NCBI GenBank assembly: GCA_027618515.1
Contig: JAQCEV010000019.1
Span: 1-38,035 of the forward strand
DNA length: 38,035 bases
Source: Chloroflexota bacterium
GTDB taxonomy: Bacteria; Chloroflexota; Dehalococcoidia; Lucifugimonadales; Australimonadaceae
Direction of reading: 5' to 3'
Positions 1,801 through 37,795 of the stretch are shown piece by piece. Made by a program: the position numbers and the translations under genes. Positions within the stretch are counted from its first letter, which is position 1. The number at the start of each line of letters is the position of its first letter. The notes below the pieces were generated by a model that saw only the letters and a program-made list of their open reading frames with translations, ran no database searches and had not been told where the DNA came from.

Positions 1801-3195
1801 ATGACGCAGAAGGGCTATCGGACCGAAAAGGACACCATGGGGGAGATGCAGGTTCCCGAGGACGCCTACTGGGGCGCATCTAGTCAGCGGGCCGTCCTCA
1901 ACTTCCCGGTCAGTAACCTGCGTTACCCGCCGGACTTCATCCACATCTTGGGGCAGATCAAGCGAGCCGCGGCGCGTGCCAACACCGGCTTAGGGTTGCT
2001 CGACGCCAAGACATCCGACGCCATCGTTAGCGCCGCCACCGAAGTGGTCGATGGGAAGTGGGACGAGCACTTTGTGATCGATCTGTTCCAGACCGGTTCC
2101 GGGACATCCACCAACACCAACGCCAACGAGGTCATCGCCAAGCGCGCACGCGAGATCGCTGAGGGCGTGAACGTTCACCCCAACGACCACGTGAACATGG
2201 CGCAATCGTCAAACGATGTCATCCCAACCGCTAGCCACCTAACGGTTGCTCGCGTGATCAAGGACGATCTCCTCCCTGCCCTCGCGCAGGCGCAGGCCAC
2301 GCTTGAGGCGAAGTCCAAGGAGTTCTGGGACATCATCAAGACGGGCCGGACGCACTTGCAGGACGCGACGCCGATCAGATTGGGCCAGGAATTCGCGGGC
2401 TACGCCAGCCAGCTCCTGCTCGCCCAGGAGCGGCTGCGCCCTCACGTTGAGGCGCTCGCCGAGGTTGCGCTCGGTGGCACCGCAGTAGGTACGGGTATCA
2501 ACGCGCACGAGGATTTCTCGGCACGCGCTTGCGAGATTTTGGCCGAAGAGTTGGGCCTTCCCGTTCGAGAGACTCCGCACCACTTCCAGGCACAGAACAC
2601 CCAAGACACCATGCTGGCGGCGAGCGGGGCTCTTCGCAGCGTTGCGGTCTCCCTCCAGAAGATCGCGAATGACCTCCGCTGGCTCGCATCGGGCCCTCGC
2701 GCTGGCCTTGGCGAGATCGAGTTGCCCACGGTGCAGCCCGGCTCATCGATCATGCCAGGCAAGGTCAACCCAGTGATCGCCGAGTCTGTCGTGCAGGTCG
2801 TCTGCCAGGTCATCGGCAACGACGCCGCAGTCTCAGCCGCAGCCCAGGGCGGGTACTTGGAGCTGAACACCTACTGGCCAGTGGCTGCGTACAACATCCA
2901 CCAGTCAGCCTCGCTGTTGGCATCAGCTACCAAGAATTTCGATCTCCAGTGTCTCCGGGGCATCACGGCCACGACCCACGGCCCGGAGATGGTTGAGCAA
3001 GGCCTGATGATGGCGACAGGCCTAACGCCTGCTGTCGGTTACGACGAGGCGACGAGGATCGCCAAAGCCGCAGCCGCCAAAGGCGTAACGATCCGTGAGT
3101 TGGCCAAGGCAGAGACAGACCTGACCGATGAGCAGCTAGACATGCTTTTGGATCCGGCCCGGATGACTGCGCCCGGCATCGCCGACGGCGCATAA
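1801..3195 (+). CDS. fumC: Class II fumarate hydratase
   Basis: This enzyme interconverts fumarate and L-malate in the TCA cycle as a cytosolic homotetramer with no iron-sulfur cluster. The 464-residue length is typical of FumC. The superfamily signature GSSIMPGKVN is at about residues 314-323. The substrate-contact segments TGSGTSTNTNANEV, AQSSNDVIPTA and GRTHLQDATP are all present, with the His of the last one in place. The ORF is open from 1765. I chose the ATG at 1801 because the product then begins in the usual short FumC way (charged run, then EKDTMGEMQVP) and GGAGAG lies 8-9 nt upstream; ATG 1786 is an alternative. The close relative aspartase is less likely given the fumarase-type motifs. 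Confidence 0.95.
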   Translation: MTQKGYRTEKDTMGEMQVPEDAYWGASSQRAVLNFPVSNLRYPPDFIHILGQIKRAAARANTGLGLLDAKTSDAIVSAATEVVDGKWDEHFVIDLFQTGSGTSTNTNANEVIAKRAREIAEGVNVHPNDHVNMAQSSNDVIPTASHLTVARVIKDDLLPALAQAQATLEAKSKEFWDIIKTGRTHLQDATPIRLGQEFAGYASQLLLAQERLRPHVEALAEVALGGTAVGTGINAHEDFSARACEILAEELGLPVRETPHHFQAQNTQDTMLAASGALRSVAVSLQKIANDLRWLASGPRAGLGEIELPTVQPGSSIMPGKVNPVIAESVVQVVCQVIGNDAAVSAAAQGGYLELNTYWPVAAYNIHQSASLLASATKNFDLQCLRGITATTHGPEMVEQGLMMATGLTPAVGYDEATRIAKAAAAKGVTIRELAKAETDLTDEQLDMLLDPARMTAPGIADGA

Positions 3196-3250
3196 GGCGG
3201 TGGCGGCTAGTCGACTACTCCAGAGCCAGGTTCGGAGTAGCATTACCGCC
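3196..3250 (+). other. Stem-loop immediately after fumC
   Basis: The inverted repeat CTACTCC (3215-3221) and GGAGTAG (3234-3240) is a perfect 7-bp stem with a 12-nt loop. An outer pair, GGCGGT (3196-3201) and ACCGCC (3245-3250), could extend it across an asymmetric internal loop. It begins directly after the fumC stop codon. There is no U-tract, so it is not a classical intrinsic terminator. It could protect the fumC mRNA 3' end or act in Rho-type or weak termination. Confidence 0.4.
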
Positions 3251-3258
3251 AGTTCTAA

Positions 3259-3306
3259 AGCGAACGAAGAGAGTCTGCCAATTTTGTAGCGAACGAAGAG
3301 CGTCTG
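3259..3306 (+). repeat. Two 19-nt direct repeats upstream of the GyrI-like gene
   Basis: AGCGAACGAAGAGAGTCTG at 3259-3277 recurs as AGCGAACGAAGAGCGTCTG at 3288-3306, 18 of 19 identical, with a 29-nt period. The second copy ends just before the GGAGG ribosome binding site of the next gene (start at 3320). Possible roles are a tandem regulator site or an RNA element in the leader. A recent local duplication is the simplest alternative. Confidence 0.6.
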
Positions 3307-3319
3307 ACGGAGGACAACG

Positions 3320-3826
3320 ATGGCATACGACATCGAGATCAAAGCGATCAAAGCACAGCGTTTCGCTGGCATCAGGGCCAAGGCAACTATCAATAAGGTT
3401 ACCCAGAAGGTTACCCAGTTGCTCAGCGAGACAGCCGAATACTTGGAGGCCCAGGGGGTCAAGCCAACAGGCCCAGGGTTCGGCGTTTACTACGAAGTAG
3501 GCGCAGTGGTAGTCGACGTTGAGGTCGGCTACCCCATCGACGGTGAGATCGAGGGCAACGATCGCGTGCACGCCGGTGAACTACCTGGCGTGAATGCGGC
3601 AGTCGCCATCTACGAGGGCCCTCACGACAACATGCCTGACGCTCATCGGGCAGTCCACATGTGGATGCACGAGAACGACGTGAAGGCCAGTGAGGAACCA
3701 GCTCGCGAGGTGTACATCACCGACCTGCGTGAGCTGAAAGAGGGCGAGGACTGCAGGGCCGAATCGGTGTGGCCAGTGATGGTTCCTCCGACGCGCGCCG
3801 AACGTCGAAGAGCCGCTAGTAAGTAA
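3320..3826 (+). CDS. GyrI-like small-molecule-binding domain protein
   Basis: The 168-residue soluble protein resembles stand-alone GyrI/AraC-effector-binding domains (SBM fold). It shows the typical opening (an EIK...RFAGIRAKA strand), the central GPGFGVYYEV segment, and the VAIYEGPHDNMPDAHRAV stretch in which a conserved Gly-Pro is followed by an amphipathic helix. Such proteins bind hydrophobic ligands and some hydrolyse cyclopropanoid toxins. There is no DNA-binding domain. The start is well supported by GGAGG 7 nt upstream. The C-terminus is rich in Arg/Lys/Ala and looks disordered. A hemerythrin-like gene follows 36 nt later in the same direction, so the two may be co-transcribed. The ligand cannot be named. 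Confidence 0.7.
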   Translation: MAYDIEIKAIKAQRFAGIRAKATINKVTQKVTQLLSETAEYLEAQGVKPTGPGFGVYYEVGAVVVDVEVGYPIDGEIEGNDRVHAGELPGVNAAVAIYEGPHDNMPDAHRAVHMWMHENDVKASEEPAREVYITDLRELKEGEDCRAESVWPVMVPPTRAERRRAASK

Positions 3827-24197: not shown

Positions 24198-24226
24198 TTG
24201 ACACTCGCCTAGCGGCCCCTTAGCAT
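24198..24226 (+). promoter_or_regulatory. Sigma-70-type promoter of the suf operon
   Basis: TTGACA at 24198-24203 and TAGCAT at 24221-24226 are separated by exactly 17 nt, the best promoter match in the window. The predicted transcript start, near 24233, falls in the 5' arm of the adjacent inverted repeat. The leader before sufB would be about 150 nt. Confidence 0.75.
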
Positions 24227-24231
24227 ATTGT

Positions 24232-24270
24232 CGATGCGTAGGGTCAACAATAGGTGTTGCCCTCGCATCG
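24232..24270 (+). promoter_or_regulatory. Long dyad at the suf transcription start, SufR-like core
   Basis: The 5' arm CGATGCG-t-AGGG-t-CAACA pairs with the 3' arm TGTTG-CCCT-CGCATCG around the loop ATAGG: 16 bp with two bulged T residues. The core CAACA-N5-TGTTG resembles the operator recalled for cyanobacterial SufR (CAAC-N6-GTTG), an iron-sulfur-containing repressor of suf genes. Its position on the start site would suit a repressor. It could equally act as a 5' hairpin in the mRNA. No U-tract follows, so it is not a terminator. Confidence 0.6.
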
Positions 24271-24384: not shown

Positions 24385-25842
24385 ATGGCCACCAGCAACC
24401 AAGAGATCCAGAACGTCGCGGACGAACAATACCGCTATGGCTGGGTCACGGATGTGGAAGAGGAATCAGCACCTCCCGGCCTGAGCGAGGAGATCGTCCG
24501 GTGGATATCCGCCAAGAAGGGCGAGCCCGAATGGCTGACCGAATGGCGCCTGCGGGCCCTTCGGCACTTCTTTAAGCTGGTTGAAGAGGAACAATCCCCT
24601 GAGTGGGCCAACCTCAAGATCCCGCCCATCGACCTGCAAGCGATCTCGTACTACGCCGCGCCGAAGCCGAAGCTCGAACTTGAGAGCCTGGATCAGGTAG
24701 ACGCGGAGATCCTCAAGACCTATGAAAAGCTCGGCATTCCGCTGCTGGAGCAAAAGCGCCTCGCTGGAGTCGCGGTCGACGCCATCTTCGACAGCGTGTC
24801 GGTGGCGAACACAGCGAAAGAGTCGCTGGCCAAACACGGCATCATCTTCTCGTCGGTGTCCGAGGCGGTCAAAGAGCACCCGGAGTTGGTGAAGAAGTAC
24901 CTAGGCTCCGTGGTTCCCTATTCCGATAACTACTGGGCGGCCCTGAATTCCGCCGTCTTCTCTGACGGATCATTCGTCTACATCCCGCCGGGCGTCCGAT
25001 GCCCGCTGGAGCTTTCCACGTACTTCCGCATCAACGCGCAGGGCTCCGGCCAGTTCGAGCGCACGGTGATCATCGCGGACAAGGGCTCATACGTGAGCTA
25101 TCTAGAGGGCTGCTCAGCGCCCATGCGCGACGAGAATCAGCTCCACGCTGCGGTCGTGGAACTGGTCGCGCTGGACGACGCGGAGATCAAATACTCGACG
25201 ATCCAGAACTGGTACCCCGGCAATGACGAGGGCGTCGGTGGGATCTACAACTTCGTGACCAAGCGCGGCAAGTGCGCGGGTCGGTCGTCCAAGATCTCGT
25301 GGACCCAGGTGGAGACGGGCTCCGCCATCACCTGGAAGTACCCCAGCGTCATCCTCCAGGGCGACAACTCCATCGGTGAGTTCTACTCCGTAGCGTTGAC
25401 CAAGGGCCGCATGCAGGCCGACACCGGCACGAAGATGCACCACATCGGCAAGAACACATCGAGCACCATCATCTCCAAGGGCATCTCAGCAGGCCAAGGC
25501 CAGAACACCTACCGTGGGCTGGTTCAAGTCGGTTCCAAGGCGGAGAACGCCCGGAACTTCACGCGCTGCGATTCGCTGCTTATCGGTGATCAATGTGGAG
25601 CACACACCGTGCCCTACGTCGAGGTCAAGAACAGCTCATCTAGCGTCGAGCACGAAGCCTCGACGACCAAGGTTAGCGAAGACCAGATCTTCTACTGCCA
25701 GCAACGTGGCCTCTCCCCCGAGGACGCACAGTCCGTCATCATCAACGGCTTCGTCCGTGACGTCGTCCGGCGGTTGCCGCTGGAGTTCGCCGTTGAGGCC
25801 AATCGTCTGCTTGAGATCAATCTGGAAGGCGCGGTCGGGTAA
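24385..25842 (+). CDS. sufB: Fe-S cluster assembly scaffold SufB
   Basis: SufB is the core scaffold of the SufBC2D complex that builds iron-sulfur clusters in the cytosol. The 485-residue length fits the family. The beta-helix core ends with [21 protein letters not shown], which holds the conserved Cys, then [28 protein letters not shown] and the C-terminal helices. [26 protein letters not shown] is another signature (read here as its family pattern). The ATG at 24385 has only a weak AAGAA upstream. It is first in the suf operon, after a 150-nt leader with a strong promoter and dyad. Confidence 0.96.
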
Positions 25843-25859: not shown

Positions 25860-26612
25860 ATGTTAGAGATTACTGACCTACACGCCGAAGTCGCTGGCGT
25901 CGAGATACTCAAAGGCATAAACCTGCGCGTGGACGCGGGTGAGGTTCACGCCATCATGGGCCCTAACGGCTCAGGCAAGAGCACGCTCGCCAACGTCATC
26001 GCCGGCAATCCGTCCTACCGCGTAACGGCAGGCACGATGGAGTTCGAAGGCGAAGACCTCGCCACGATGGCTCCCGAGGAACGAGCGCGCCGAGGCGTGT
26101 TCCTGTCGTTCCAGCACCCGGTGGAGATCCCAGGTCTGCGTATGGATCACTTCATCCGTGCTGGCTACAACGCCGTTATGAAGAGCCGAGACGAAGATCA
26201 GCTTGACCCGCTGAAGTTCGATCGTCTGATCAGGGCCAAGGCCAAGGTTGTCGAGATGGACGCGACGCTCACCAAGCGGGCGGTCAACGAGGGCTTCTCC
26301 GGTGGTGAGAAGAAGCGCAACGAGATACTTCAGATGGCGGTGCTGGAGCCCAAGCTCCGCATCCTCGATGAGATCGACTCCGGCCTGGATGTAGACGCGC
26401 TCCGCAGCGTGTCCGCCAGCGTCAACGAGCTGATGGGGCCAGACAAGGCAACACTGCTGGTGACTCACTACGAGCGCCTGTTGACCTACATCGTGCCCAA
26501 CCAGATCCACATCCTCATGGATGGACGGATCGTCGCCTCCGGCGGCAAGGAGTTGGCCCGCGAGATCGAGGCCAAGGGCTACGACTGGCTGGCCGAGCAG
26601 CAGAGCGCGTAG
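25860..26612 (+). CDS. sufC: Fe-S cluster assembly ATPase SufC
   Basis: SufC is the ABC-type ATPase that drives conformational change in SufBCD. The 250-residue product has Walker A GPNGSGKST, the Q-loop FQHPVEIPG, the ABC signature FSGGEKKRNE, Walker B LRILDEIDSGLD and the H-loop VTHYERLL. These are the SufC-specific versions of the motifs (for example GEKKRNE). It starts 17 nt after sufB, with purine-rich sequence upstream, and is followed by sufD after 10 nt. Confidence 0.97.
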   Translation: MLEITDLHAEVAGVEILKGINLRVDAGEVHAIMGPNGSGKSTLANVIAGNPSYRVTAGTMEFEGEDLATMAPEERARRGVFLSFQHPVEIPGLRMDHFIRAGYNAVMKSRDEDQLDPLKFDRLIRAKAKVVEMDATLTKRAVNEGFSGGEKKRNEILQMAVLEPKLRILDEIDSGLDVDALRSVSASVNELMGPDKATLLVTHYERLLTYIVPNQIHILMDGRIVASGGKELAREIEAKGYDWLAEQQSA

Positions 26613-26622
26613 CAACAGCAAC

Positions 26623-27972
26623 ATGGCCCAGCGCGACTCTCAAGAATCTCACTATCTATCAACGTTCGCCGCATTTGAGCAGAACGGTCCTTCCGCAAGC
26701 CCCGACTGGTTAAAGGCGCTCCGCAAGCAGGCTATTGCCAACTTCGAGCGCGATGGCTTCCCCACAGCACGACGTGGCAACGAGTTGTGGAAGTACACCG
26801 ACGTCCGGTCGCTGGCCTCCCACGCTTTCACGCTATCAAAGGGCAATGGCCACGAGGCGATCGATTTCGCTCCGTACGACCTACCCTGCCCGCGTGTCCA
26901 CCAACTCGTGTTCGTCGACGGCCACTACGCCGCTGACCTCTCGACCGAGCCGCCGAGCCAAGCCGAGCACCAGGCAGAGACTATCGGCCACCGCAGCGAG
27001 GGGCTCATCGTAGGGCGACTGTCTGAGGCCATCCAGGAGCGTCTGCCGCTCGTCGAGCAATACCTGAGTCAGCAAGCGGGCGCCGGTGCGTTCGCAGCCC
27101 TCAACACGGCTTTCGTTGAAGATGGCGCGCTGGTGTACATCCCCGATGGCGTCGCCGTCCACGAGCCTATCTACCTTTTGTTCATCACCACCGGGCATGC
27201 CTCAGTCGTCACCCACCCGCGCGTCCTGATCATCGCGGGAGCTGACTCCAAGGCGACCGTCATCCAAGGCTACGAGTCCCTGACTGCGGACGCGGAACCT
27301 TACTTCACCAACGCCGTGACGGAGATCGTGACGCGCCCCGGTGCGGTGCTGCGTCACTACAAGCTCCAGCGAGAGGCGCGTAACGCCTACCACGTCGCCG
27401 CAACTCACGCGACGGTCGGGCGCGACAGCATGTTCGCGTCAGTCTCGCTCGATCTGGGTGGCGGGCTGGTACGCAACGACATCTCCATCACGCTGGCCGA
27501 AGTCGGCGCGTCGGTGAAGCTGGATGGCCTGTACCTTGGCGACGGCAAGCGCCACATCGATAATCACACGTTCGTTGACCATGCCGTCCCCGGCACCTCC
27601 AGCGACGAGGTCTACAAGGGCATCCTCACAGACGCGTCCCACGGCGTTTTCGTTGGCCGCGTGTTGGTGCGCCATGACGCCCAGCACACGGTCGCGCACC
27701 AGGTGAACAAGAACCTCGTCCTCTCCGACGACGCCGAAGTGGACAGCCAGCCGATGCTGGAGATCTTCGCCGACGACGTCCAGTGCACCCACGGTGCGGC
27801 CATCGGGCGGCTCGACCCCAACGCGGTCTTCTACCTCAATAGTCGAGGCTTGGACACGCGTGAGGCACAAGAGTTGTTGGTACACGGGTTCGTCAGTGAG
27901 ATCCTCTCCGCCATCGTCGATGATGCGGTTCGCCAGTACACCGATGATGCGGTGCTCACCAAGCTTGGTTAG
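26623..27972 (+). CDS. sufD: Fe-S cluster assembly protein SufD
   Basis: SufD is the partner of SufB in the SufBC2D scaffold and is needed for iron entry. The 449-residue product has the N-terminal helical part with RRGNELWKYTDVR, a typical SufD segment, then the beta-helix with VYIPDGV, and the conserved C-terminal block DVQCTHGAAIGRLDPNAVFYLNSRGL. The frame is open from 26521 inside sufC, but the ATG at 26623 gives the normal SufD N-terminus. No strong ribosome binding site is visible. It lies between sufC and sufS. Confidence 0.94.
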   Translation: MAQRDSQESHYLSTFAAFEQNGPSASPDWLKALRKQAIANFERDGFPTARRGNELWKYTDVRSLASHAFTLSKGNGHEAIDFAPYDLPCPRVHQLVFVDGHYAADLSTEPPSQAEHQAETIGHRSEGLIVGRLSEAIQERLPLVEQYLSQQAGAGAFAALNTAFVEDGALVYIPDGVAVHEPIYLLFITTGHASVVTHPRVLIIAGADSKATVIQGYESLTADAEPYFTNAVTEIVTRPGAVLRHYKLQREARNAYHVAATHATVGRDSMFASVSLDLGGGLVRNDISITLAEVGASVKLDGLYLGDGKRHIDNHTFVDHAVPGTSSDEVYKGILTDASHGVFVGRVLVRHDAQHTVAHQVNKNLVLSDDAEVDSQPMLEIFADDVQCTHGAAIGRLDPNAVFYLNSRGLDTREAQELLVHGFVSEILSAIVDDAVRQYTDDAVLTKLG

Positions 27973-27994: not shown

Positions 27995-29242
27995 ATGTAC
28001 GACGTTTCCGCCGTCCGCAATGATTTCCCGATTCTGTCCAGGCAGGTCAACGGCAAGCCGCTGGTCTATCTCGACAATGCCGCCACGTCCCAGAAACCGC
28101 AGTCGATGATCGACGCGCTGGTGGACTACTACTCGCGCTACAACTCCAACGTCCACCGTGGCGTGCACACCCTGAGCATGGAGGCGACCGACGCCTACGA
28201 ACTGGCGCGCCAGAAGATCGCCACATTCATCAATGCACCCTCGCCAGACAACCTCATCTTCGTGCGAAACACGTCTGAGGCCATCAACTTGGTGGCCTAC
28301 TCATGGGCAGCGGCGAACCTCAAGAAGGGCGACAGAGTCGTCTCGACGGAGATGGAGCATCACTCCAACCTGGTGCCCTGGCAGCATGCCGTGGCCGAGG
28401 CTGGCGCTGAACTCAAGCTGATGAAGATGGCCGAGGACTACAGCCTCGATCTCTCAGAACTCGACGAACTGCTGACGCCGCAGACCAAGCTGGTGGCCTT
28501 CACGCAGATGTCCAACGTACTCGGCACGATCACGCCCGCTAAAGAGATCGTCGCTGCCGCGCACCGCGTCGGCGCGCTGGCACTCGTGGACGCCGCCCAG
28601 AGCGTGCCCCACATCGCAGTCGACGTGCAGGACCTCGACTGCGATTTCCTCGCGTTCTCCGGGCACAAGATGGCCGGGCCCATGGGCATCGGCGTCCTGT
28701 ACGTGAAGAGCGAAGTTTTGGAACAGATGGAGCCATTCCTCCGGGGCGGCGAGATGGTTCTCGAAGTGACTTATGAGAAAGCCACATGGGCAGACCTACC
28801 CATGAAGTTCGAGGCTGGCACGCCCAGCGTCGCTGACTCGATAGGGCTGGGAGCCGCCGTAGACTATCTGACAGCACTCGGCATGGACAACATCCGACAG
28901 CACGAGGTCGAACTCACGACCTACGCGCTGGAGCGCTTCAAGGAGCTGGAAGAGGTCACCACCTACGGGCCGACTGACATGTCCATCCGTGGCGGTGTCG
29001 TGTCCTTCACGATGGGCAACGTTCACCCCCATGACATCGGCCAGGTGCTCGACCAGGCAGGCGTCGCCATCCGCACAGGCCACCACTGCGCCATGCCGCT
29101 GGTACGCAGCAGGCTCCACCTGCCCGCGACCGCTCGTGCCAGTTTCTATCTGTACAATACTGAGGCAGAGGTCGACGCGCTCATCGACGGCCTCAAGACA
29201 ACCTCGAGGTTCTTTGGCGATGCAAGCTCCCGACGGTCTTGA
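27995..29242 (+). CDS. sufS: Cysteine desulfurase SufS
   Basis: SufS is a PLP-dependent enzyme that takes sulfur from cysteine as a persulfide. The 415-residue product has the PLP Lys225 in SGHKMAGP, the persulfide Cys365 in TGHHCAMP, and the N-terminal VYLDNAATSQKPQ and NVHRGVHTLS motifs of group II (SufS-type) desulfurases. AGGA 9-10 nt upstream supports the ATG. The 3' end overlaps sufU by 23 nt, which suggests coupled translation with its sulfur acceptor. Confidence 0.96.
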   Translation: MYDVSAVRNDFPILSRQVNGKPLVYLDNAATSQKPQSMIDALVDYYSRYNSNVHRGVHTLSMEATDAYELARQKIATFINAPSPDNLIFVRNTSEAINLVAYSWAAANLKKGDRVVSTEMEHHSNLVPWQHAVAEAGAELKLMKMAEDYSLDLSELDELLTPQTKLVAFTQMSNVLGTITPAKEIVAAAHRVGALALVDAAQSVPHIAVDVQDLDCDFLAFSGHKMAGPMGIGVLYVKSEVLEQMEPFLRGGEMVLEVTYEKATWADLPMKFEAGTPSVADSIGLGAAVDYLTALGMDNIRQHEVELTTYALERFKELEEVTTYGPTDMSIRGGVVSFTMGNVHPHDIGQVLDQAGVAIRTGHHCAMPLVRSRLHLPATARASFYLYNTEAEVDALIDGLKTTSRFFGDASSRRS

Positions 29243-29678
29243 CGACCTCTACCAAGACATCATCCTTGACCACTACCGGAGCCCCCGTAACCAGGGCGCT
29301 CTAGAACATCCTCACCTTCACGGCGAGGGGTTCAACCCGTTCTGCGGCGACCAGATTCACCTAACCATGACGTTAGGTGAAGACGGTCGCATCAACGGCG
29401 TGGGGTTCGTGGGCCAGGGCTGCTCGATCTCGCAGGCATCCGCGTCCATGCTCAGCGACCAGCTGAAGGGCAAGACGCTGGATGAAGCCGAAGCGTTCGT
29501 TCGCATGTTCAAGGGCATCATGCAGGGCGAAGAGGTCTCAGAAGAGCTGGAAGAGGAGATCGGAGAGATCGCCTCGCTTCAAGGCGTGAGACAATTCCCG
29601 GTGCGCATCAAGTGCGCGCTCCTCGGCTGGACGACGCTCCAAGACGCCATTCGCGAGTACCGCGAGACCGCCAGCTAG
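29220..29678 (+). CDS. sufU: Zn-dependent sulfurtransferase SufU
   Basis: SufU receives persulfide sulfur from SufS and hands it to SufB in Gram-positive-type systems. The 152-residue product keeps the Zn ligands Cys42 and Asp44 (NPFCGDQ), Cys68 (GQGCSISQAS) and Cys132 (IKCALLGW). The insertion before the last Cys that separates SufU from IscU appears present (the acidic stretch EEVSEELEEEIGE). The ATG lies inside the end of sufS, with a GAGG site about 14 nt before it. It is the last suf gene and converges with mutS2 after 13 nt. Confidence 0.93.
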   Translation: MQAPDGLDDLYQDIILDHYRSPRNQGALEHPHLHGEGFNPFCGDQIHLTMTLGEDGRINGVGFVGQGCSISQASASMLSDQLKGKTLDEAEAFVRMFKGIMQGEEVSEELEEEIGEIASLQGVRQFPVRIKCALLGWTTLQDAIREYRETAS

Positions 29679-37529: not shown

Positions 37530-37569
37530 CGGGCCAAGTCCCCGCACGATCACACGATACCGGTCTAGA

Positions 37570-37610
37570 AGAGAGGGCCCACCGCAGATGCGGTGGGTCC
37601 CTCTCTTTTT
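37570..37610 (+). terminator. Intrinsic terminator after the VWA gene
   Basis: GAGAGGG (37571-37577) and CCCACCGC (37578-37585) pair with GCGGTGGG (37590-37597) and CCCTCTC (37599-37605), with one bulged T at 37598 and a four-nt loop. TTTTT at 37606-37610 follows at once. A 15-bp GC-rich stem plus a U-run is a strong Rho-independent terminator for the coaE-VWA transcription unit. Confidence 0.93.
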
Positions 37611-37795
37611 GTCTTCGACTACGGAATAACGGCAGGAACGCTGACTCAGCTTTGGGTAAAGGCACAGCAACCCGGCGTCACGTGCATAGCGGCTTCACAA
37701 CCGCAGGCCGACTCATCACACTGGACACACGCTAGTCAGCCATCCTATGGGAGACTGGTAGAGAGAAGCCGATAGACGAACGGTGAGGAGCAACG

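Follow-up and report, generated by a model that had tools for sequence, protein, structure and literature searches.

Which regulator acts at the promoter of the suf operon for iron-sulfur (Fe-S) cluster assembly, and through which bases, is the question raised by the window analyzed here, a stretch of 38,035 nucleotides that is contig C63 (38 kb) of a 3.0-Mb genome. According to a recent review, the control of suf in most Gram-positive bacteria without SufR is unknown (PMC8593673). A literature search, which missed most subscription journals, returned no paper on Rrf2 regulation of suf in Chloroflexota. For a mostly uncultured order of Chloroflexota (SAR202-like Dehalococcoidia), we propose a regulator together with its operator and a limited regulon; the proposal is drawn from sequence alone, with natural loss events serving as controls.

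An earlier sequence-only reading had described a TTGACA-N17-TAGCAT promoter (24198–24226) followed by a bulged 16-bp dyad, and all of the elements that it named are present (Table 1). From these elements it had argued for an Fe-S-sensing repressor of the SufR kind, with CAACA-N5-TGTTG as the regulatory core. Our analysis revealed a second dyad, ATTGTCGATG-N5-GGTCAACAAT (24227–24251), which overlaps the first, differs from it in its centre, and was not described in that reading. This dyad is an instance of a 25-bp operator of the order and spans about −7 to +18 relative to the inferred transcript start. Judged by sequence comparison, it is very likely the operator of an Fe-S-binding Rrf2 repressor, combining an IscR-like operator with NsrR-like predicted ligands. 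With a matrix built from 33 sites of other families only, it scored 21.5 bits, the highest value in the window, with the next best match at 11.9 bits and a maximum of 14.2 bits in 60 dinucleotide shuffles of the whole window.

Table 1. Promoter, predicted regulatory elements, and suf genes in the window
Feature	Position	Strand	Basis
−35 hexamer TTGACA	24198..24203	+	Sequence; TTGAC 23–25 nt before the operator in most relatives
−10 hexamer TAGCAT, 17-nt spacer	24221..24226	+	Sequence
Predicted Rrf2-type operator ATTGTCGATGCGTAGGGTCAACAAT	24227..24251	+	Half-sites 24227–24236 and 24242–24251; matrix and pattern conservation
Bulged 16-bp dyad, potential 5' mRNA hairpin	24232..24270	+	Fold; unique to the source genome among those compared
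sufB, first gene of the controlled operon	24385..25842	+	TIGR01980, 626 bits
sufC	25860..26612	+	TIGR01978, 350 bits
sufD, start chosen at MAQRDSQ	26623..27972	+	ORF; SufB-query paralogue match in frame
sufS	27995..29242	+	TIGR01979, 597 bits
sufU	29220..29678	+	TIGR01994, 156 bits

Of 59 genomes, 56 yielded a SufB match, and in each of these the sequence preceding sufB was read; the relatives that carry names are Chloroflexota MAGs labelled SAR202 or Dehalococcoidia. The 25-bp dyad ATTGTTGACY-N5-RGTCAACAAT stands directly 3' of the sufB −10 box in 46 of these 56 genomes of the order, operators being called from a score of 11.5 upward, where shuffles had a 99th percentile of 8.3. A separate pattern search allowing up to two mismatches returned 29 of the 59 genomes, compared with 2 for the reversed control pattern. 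Furthermore, 30 of 46 relatives have a TAnnnT motif ending 0–2 nt 5' of the operator, a placement seen at approximately 10% of random positions. The left half-site of the window copy is imperfect (ATTGTCGATG versus ATTGTTGACC), a form that recurs in G002, G008, and G011, while the congener G001 aligns across the −35 and −10 boxes and then shows an 8-bp deletion in the left half-site. A profile search for more sites in the source genome returned the suf site, C57:29803, and one match at C61; the C57 match lies in or beside a coding region without an Fe-S link. Scattered matches in G010, G017, and G026, none of which precedes rrf2 or an Fe-S gene, appear to be intragenic chance matches.

The dyad of the sequence-only reading pairs CGATGCG (24232–24238) with CGCATCG (24264–24270), AGGG (24240–24243) with CCCT (24260–24263), and CAACA (24245–24249) with TGTTG (24255–24259), leaving single bulged T's at 24239 and 24244. 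The suggestion that it could form a 5' mRNA hairpin holds as far as folding is concerned: it offers 16 bp from the inferred transcript start, at −25.1 kcal/mol (z = −6.3 versus local shuffles). That this hairpin acts in the mRNA, through 5' stability or attenuation, is nevertheless very unlikely, since about two dozen 48-nt stretches per strand of the 38-kb GC-rich window are at least as stable, no T run follows it, and this long hairpin was found in none of the relatives examined, whose upstream regions fold only the operator itself. As a conserved element, the long hairpin was rejected on the same grounds. A genome-wide search with the exact arm pattern returned no match, a result that carries no information because the pattern left out the bulges. 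Apart from two missing bases, the right arm of the hairpin repeats the operator region in reverse complement, as if local sequence had been copied in inverted orientation by template switching.

The bases proposed as the regulatory core fared no better. The 3.0-Mb genome contains two copies of CAACA-N5-TGTTG and four of a reversed control, which is chance level, and the motif is not conserved in relatives. Ownership of the operator by a SufR repressor would suit its role at a suf promoter and the presence of a CAAC...GTTG-like dyad, but is extremely improbable: the SufR_cyano profile TIGR02702 had no match in the source genome, of which about 6% is missing, and the proposed core has the spacing CAAC-N7-GTTG, whereas the cyanobacterial SufR site is CAAC-N6-GTTG (PMC8593673). 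A SufR gene with a SufR-type site was rejected on the missing profile match, the wrong spacing, and the chance-level occurrence of the motif. Conservation in relatives, which the reading had named as the test of its dyad, is absent for that dyad and present for the overlapping operator.

A search of the genome for a SufR- or IscR-like gene, likewise suggested in that reading, yielded no SufR and one Rrf2 protein, encoded on another contig (C94, approximately 3048–3488, minus strand) with a moeB/thiF-like gene shortly downstream. This protein is the sole candidate regulator. It passes the superfamily cut-offs (PF02082, 124.7 bits versus 30; TIGR00738, 119.3 versus 73.3) and stays under the curated cut-offs of the IscR, CymR, RirA, NsrR, and SUF regulator profiles, with 77.7 bits for IscR (TIGR02010, cut-off 207.55), 94 bits for CymR (NF047409, cut-off 195), and 44 bits for NsrR (NF008240, cut-off 182). 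Its best solved relative is 4cic, which we take to be IscR of Thermincola potens. The C94 protein has three cysteines (C-X6-C-X5-C) together with Asp8 and Arg12. These features are kept in all 30 Rrf2 orthologues read, which also share the wing motif and, over positions 8–12, the sequence Asp-Tyr-Gly-(Val/Ile)-Arg. The IscR ligand set Cys92, Cys98, Cys104, and His107 is not found in these proteins: the cysteine spacing differs, and His107 has no counterpart (CAQR at the 107 position).

The cluster of Streptomyces NsrR has Asp8 as its fourth ligand, and this residue forms a pair with Arg12 (PMC5411485). The presence of both residues here would also fit an NsrR-type NO sensor that covers suf as well, but we regard such a sensor as highly improbable given the NsrR profile score, less than a quarter of the cut-off, and the finding that none of the sites found had an NO-detoxification gene.

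Comparison across genomes revealed that the operator accompanies Rrf2: it was present in 46 of 49 genomes with Rrf2 and in none of the 7 without (Fisher p = 5e-7, uncorrected for relatedness). The seven Rrf2-negative genomes represent seven families, with congener G001 among them. The Rrf2 match of G038, which has the operator, is sub-threshold, and counting this genome as lacking Rrf2 gives 45/48 versus 1/8; the matches in G012 and G053 are partial only. Three Rrf2-positive genomes were without the operator, namely G035 (divergent SufB), G042 (divergent Rrf2), and G023 (different dyad). The dyad in G023, ATTTATGAGTAAATCACTCATAAAT, occupies the operator position upstream of sufB (contig C20, L110), where a change of specificity is possible. 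Because the operator is kept across the order and missing where Rrf2 is missing, the sequence-only reading appears to have been right in placing suf under Fe-S control, with an Fe-S-type site on the transcript start, and wrong about the bases and the repressor.

Operator copies were also found at rrf2 itself. A weaker copy, ATTGTCGACTTTATCGGTCGATTTA, lies at C94:3580–3604, 91 bp upstream of the rrf2 start codon, and scores 13.6 bits, a level reached by approximately 0.0004 matches per kb in shuffles. G018 likewise has a site at rrf2, and so do eight genomes that belong to the class but not to the order, in which the site precedes the start of an Rrf2 match by approximately 17–57 bp. Two of these Rrf2 proteins, L223 and L227, have Asp8, with the middle cysteine of L227 not evident in the alignment; several of the others carry Arg in place of Asp8 and may represent other subfamilies. 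Within the order, rrf2 lies near suf on one contig in about 20 genomes and, where it lies away from suf, mostly precedes moeB/thiF. Further sites in relatives lie upstream of sufT-mrp (two families) and of genes for an iron-binding ABC protein and a sulfite reductase, these names being read from translations and not from profile matches. At the sequence level, comparison thus establishes that the operator exists, where it lies, that it occurs together with rrf2, and that copies of it stand at rrf2 and at other Fe-S or iron genes.

Related rrf2 genes adjoin cysteine synthase genes in class-level relatives, and the signal of Rrf2 might for this reason be cysteine. A CymR-like mode, in which the same Rrf2 occupies the operator but responds to the supply of cysteine or sulfur and not to Fe-S clusters, is unlikely in our assessment. 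CymR is the top-scoring specific subfamily for the C94 protein, and the genes linked to rrf2 (moeB/thiF within the order, cysteine synthase and sulfur-carrier genes among class relatives) favor such a sensor; however, CymR is without cofactor (PMC5411485), whereas the three cysteines, Asp8, and Arg12 are invariant among the orthologues read, and suf is the most regular target, with sufT-mrp and the iron transporter among the others. At the L223 and L227 loci (G110:C114 and G129:C4), an operator-like site and rrf2 are followed by genes for cysteine synthase, small ThiS/MoaD-like proteins, and a MoeB/ThiF-like protein, an arrangement that suggests that sulfur-carrier cysteine synthesis is tied to the regulator.

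Comparison with known systems placed the predicted Rrf2 repressor and its operator closest to IscR by site, with differences in the protein. The IscR type 1 site is ATASYYGACTRWWWYAGTCRRSTAT (PMC3899308), and the consensus of the order shares with the type 1 operators of E. coli and Pseudomonas aeruginosa the 25-bp dyad and the GAC-N7-GTC core (GACT-N5-AGTC) over promoter elements, the left half of the window copy being more divergent. A three-cysteine Rrf2 protein and autoregulation, the latter predicted here, are also common to both. In contrast, the flanks are ATASYY/RRSTAT in IscR type 1 sites and ATTGTT/AACAAT here; IscR has C-X5-C and His107, whereas C-X6-C and, as the likely fourth ligand, Asp8 occur here; and IscR targets isc, whereas the target here is suf and the profile score is far below the IscR cut-off (78 versus 208 bits). 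RisR of Myxococcus xanthus, which acts as a holo-repressor and whose spectrum suggested a [4Fe-4S] cluster, is an Rrf2 protein that represses suf through a site, TtGAC-N7-GTCCa, with the same core; its footprint covers the suf −10 box and start, and the operator here is in the matching position (PMC9973013). RisR differs in its flanks and its cysteines (C92, C102, and C108; C-X9-C-X5-C), the likeness being drawn from its published description. Streptomyces coelicolor NsrR shares the three cysteines, Asp8, and Arg12, and differs in operator, targets, and signal (NO). Cyanobacterial SufR also represses suf, but it is a DeoR-type protein with its own type of site and is absent from the source genome. 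The flanks and the predicted ligand set differ here, whereas the GAC-N7-GTC core is shared with RisR and IscR type 1 sites and the 25-bp length with the IscR site. We file the system as a variant of Rrf2 control of Fe-S assembly that is not IscR, NsrR, or SufR.

We infer that the C94 Rrf2 binds the operator, binds a cluster, and represses, with cluster supply as the signal sensed; repression by the loaded form and its relief on cluster loss are taken from the relatives RisR and IscR. A cluster-loaded dimer would cover the start site and the last bases of the −10 box and so block RNA polymerase at suf, and through the second site Rrf2 would also repress its own gene. Blocking of the polymerase has likewise been proposed for RisR at its isc and suf targets (PMC9973013) and for type 1 sites occupied by IscR (PMC3899308). 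When clusters become scarce through iron limitation or oxidation, loss of its own cluster would release the protein from the DNA and allow sufBCDSU to be expressed. It is plausible, at slightly less than an even chance in our estimate, that these proteins form a distinct Chloroflexota Rrf2 subfamily with an IscR type 1-like operator and an NsrR-like Cys3-Asp8 site, which couples cysK/moeB to SUF and has been lost repeatedly together with its operator. With this system one can test directly whether an Rrf2 protein of the Cys3-Asp8 type is able to control Fe-S homeostasis through an IscR type 1-like site.

Elsewhere in the window, positions 37561–37615 form a very strong hairpin, AAGAGAGGGCCCACCGCAGATGCGGTGGGTCCCTCTCTTTTT (approximately −35 kcal/mol), with T's at its end, which is likely an intrinsic terminator.
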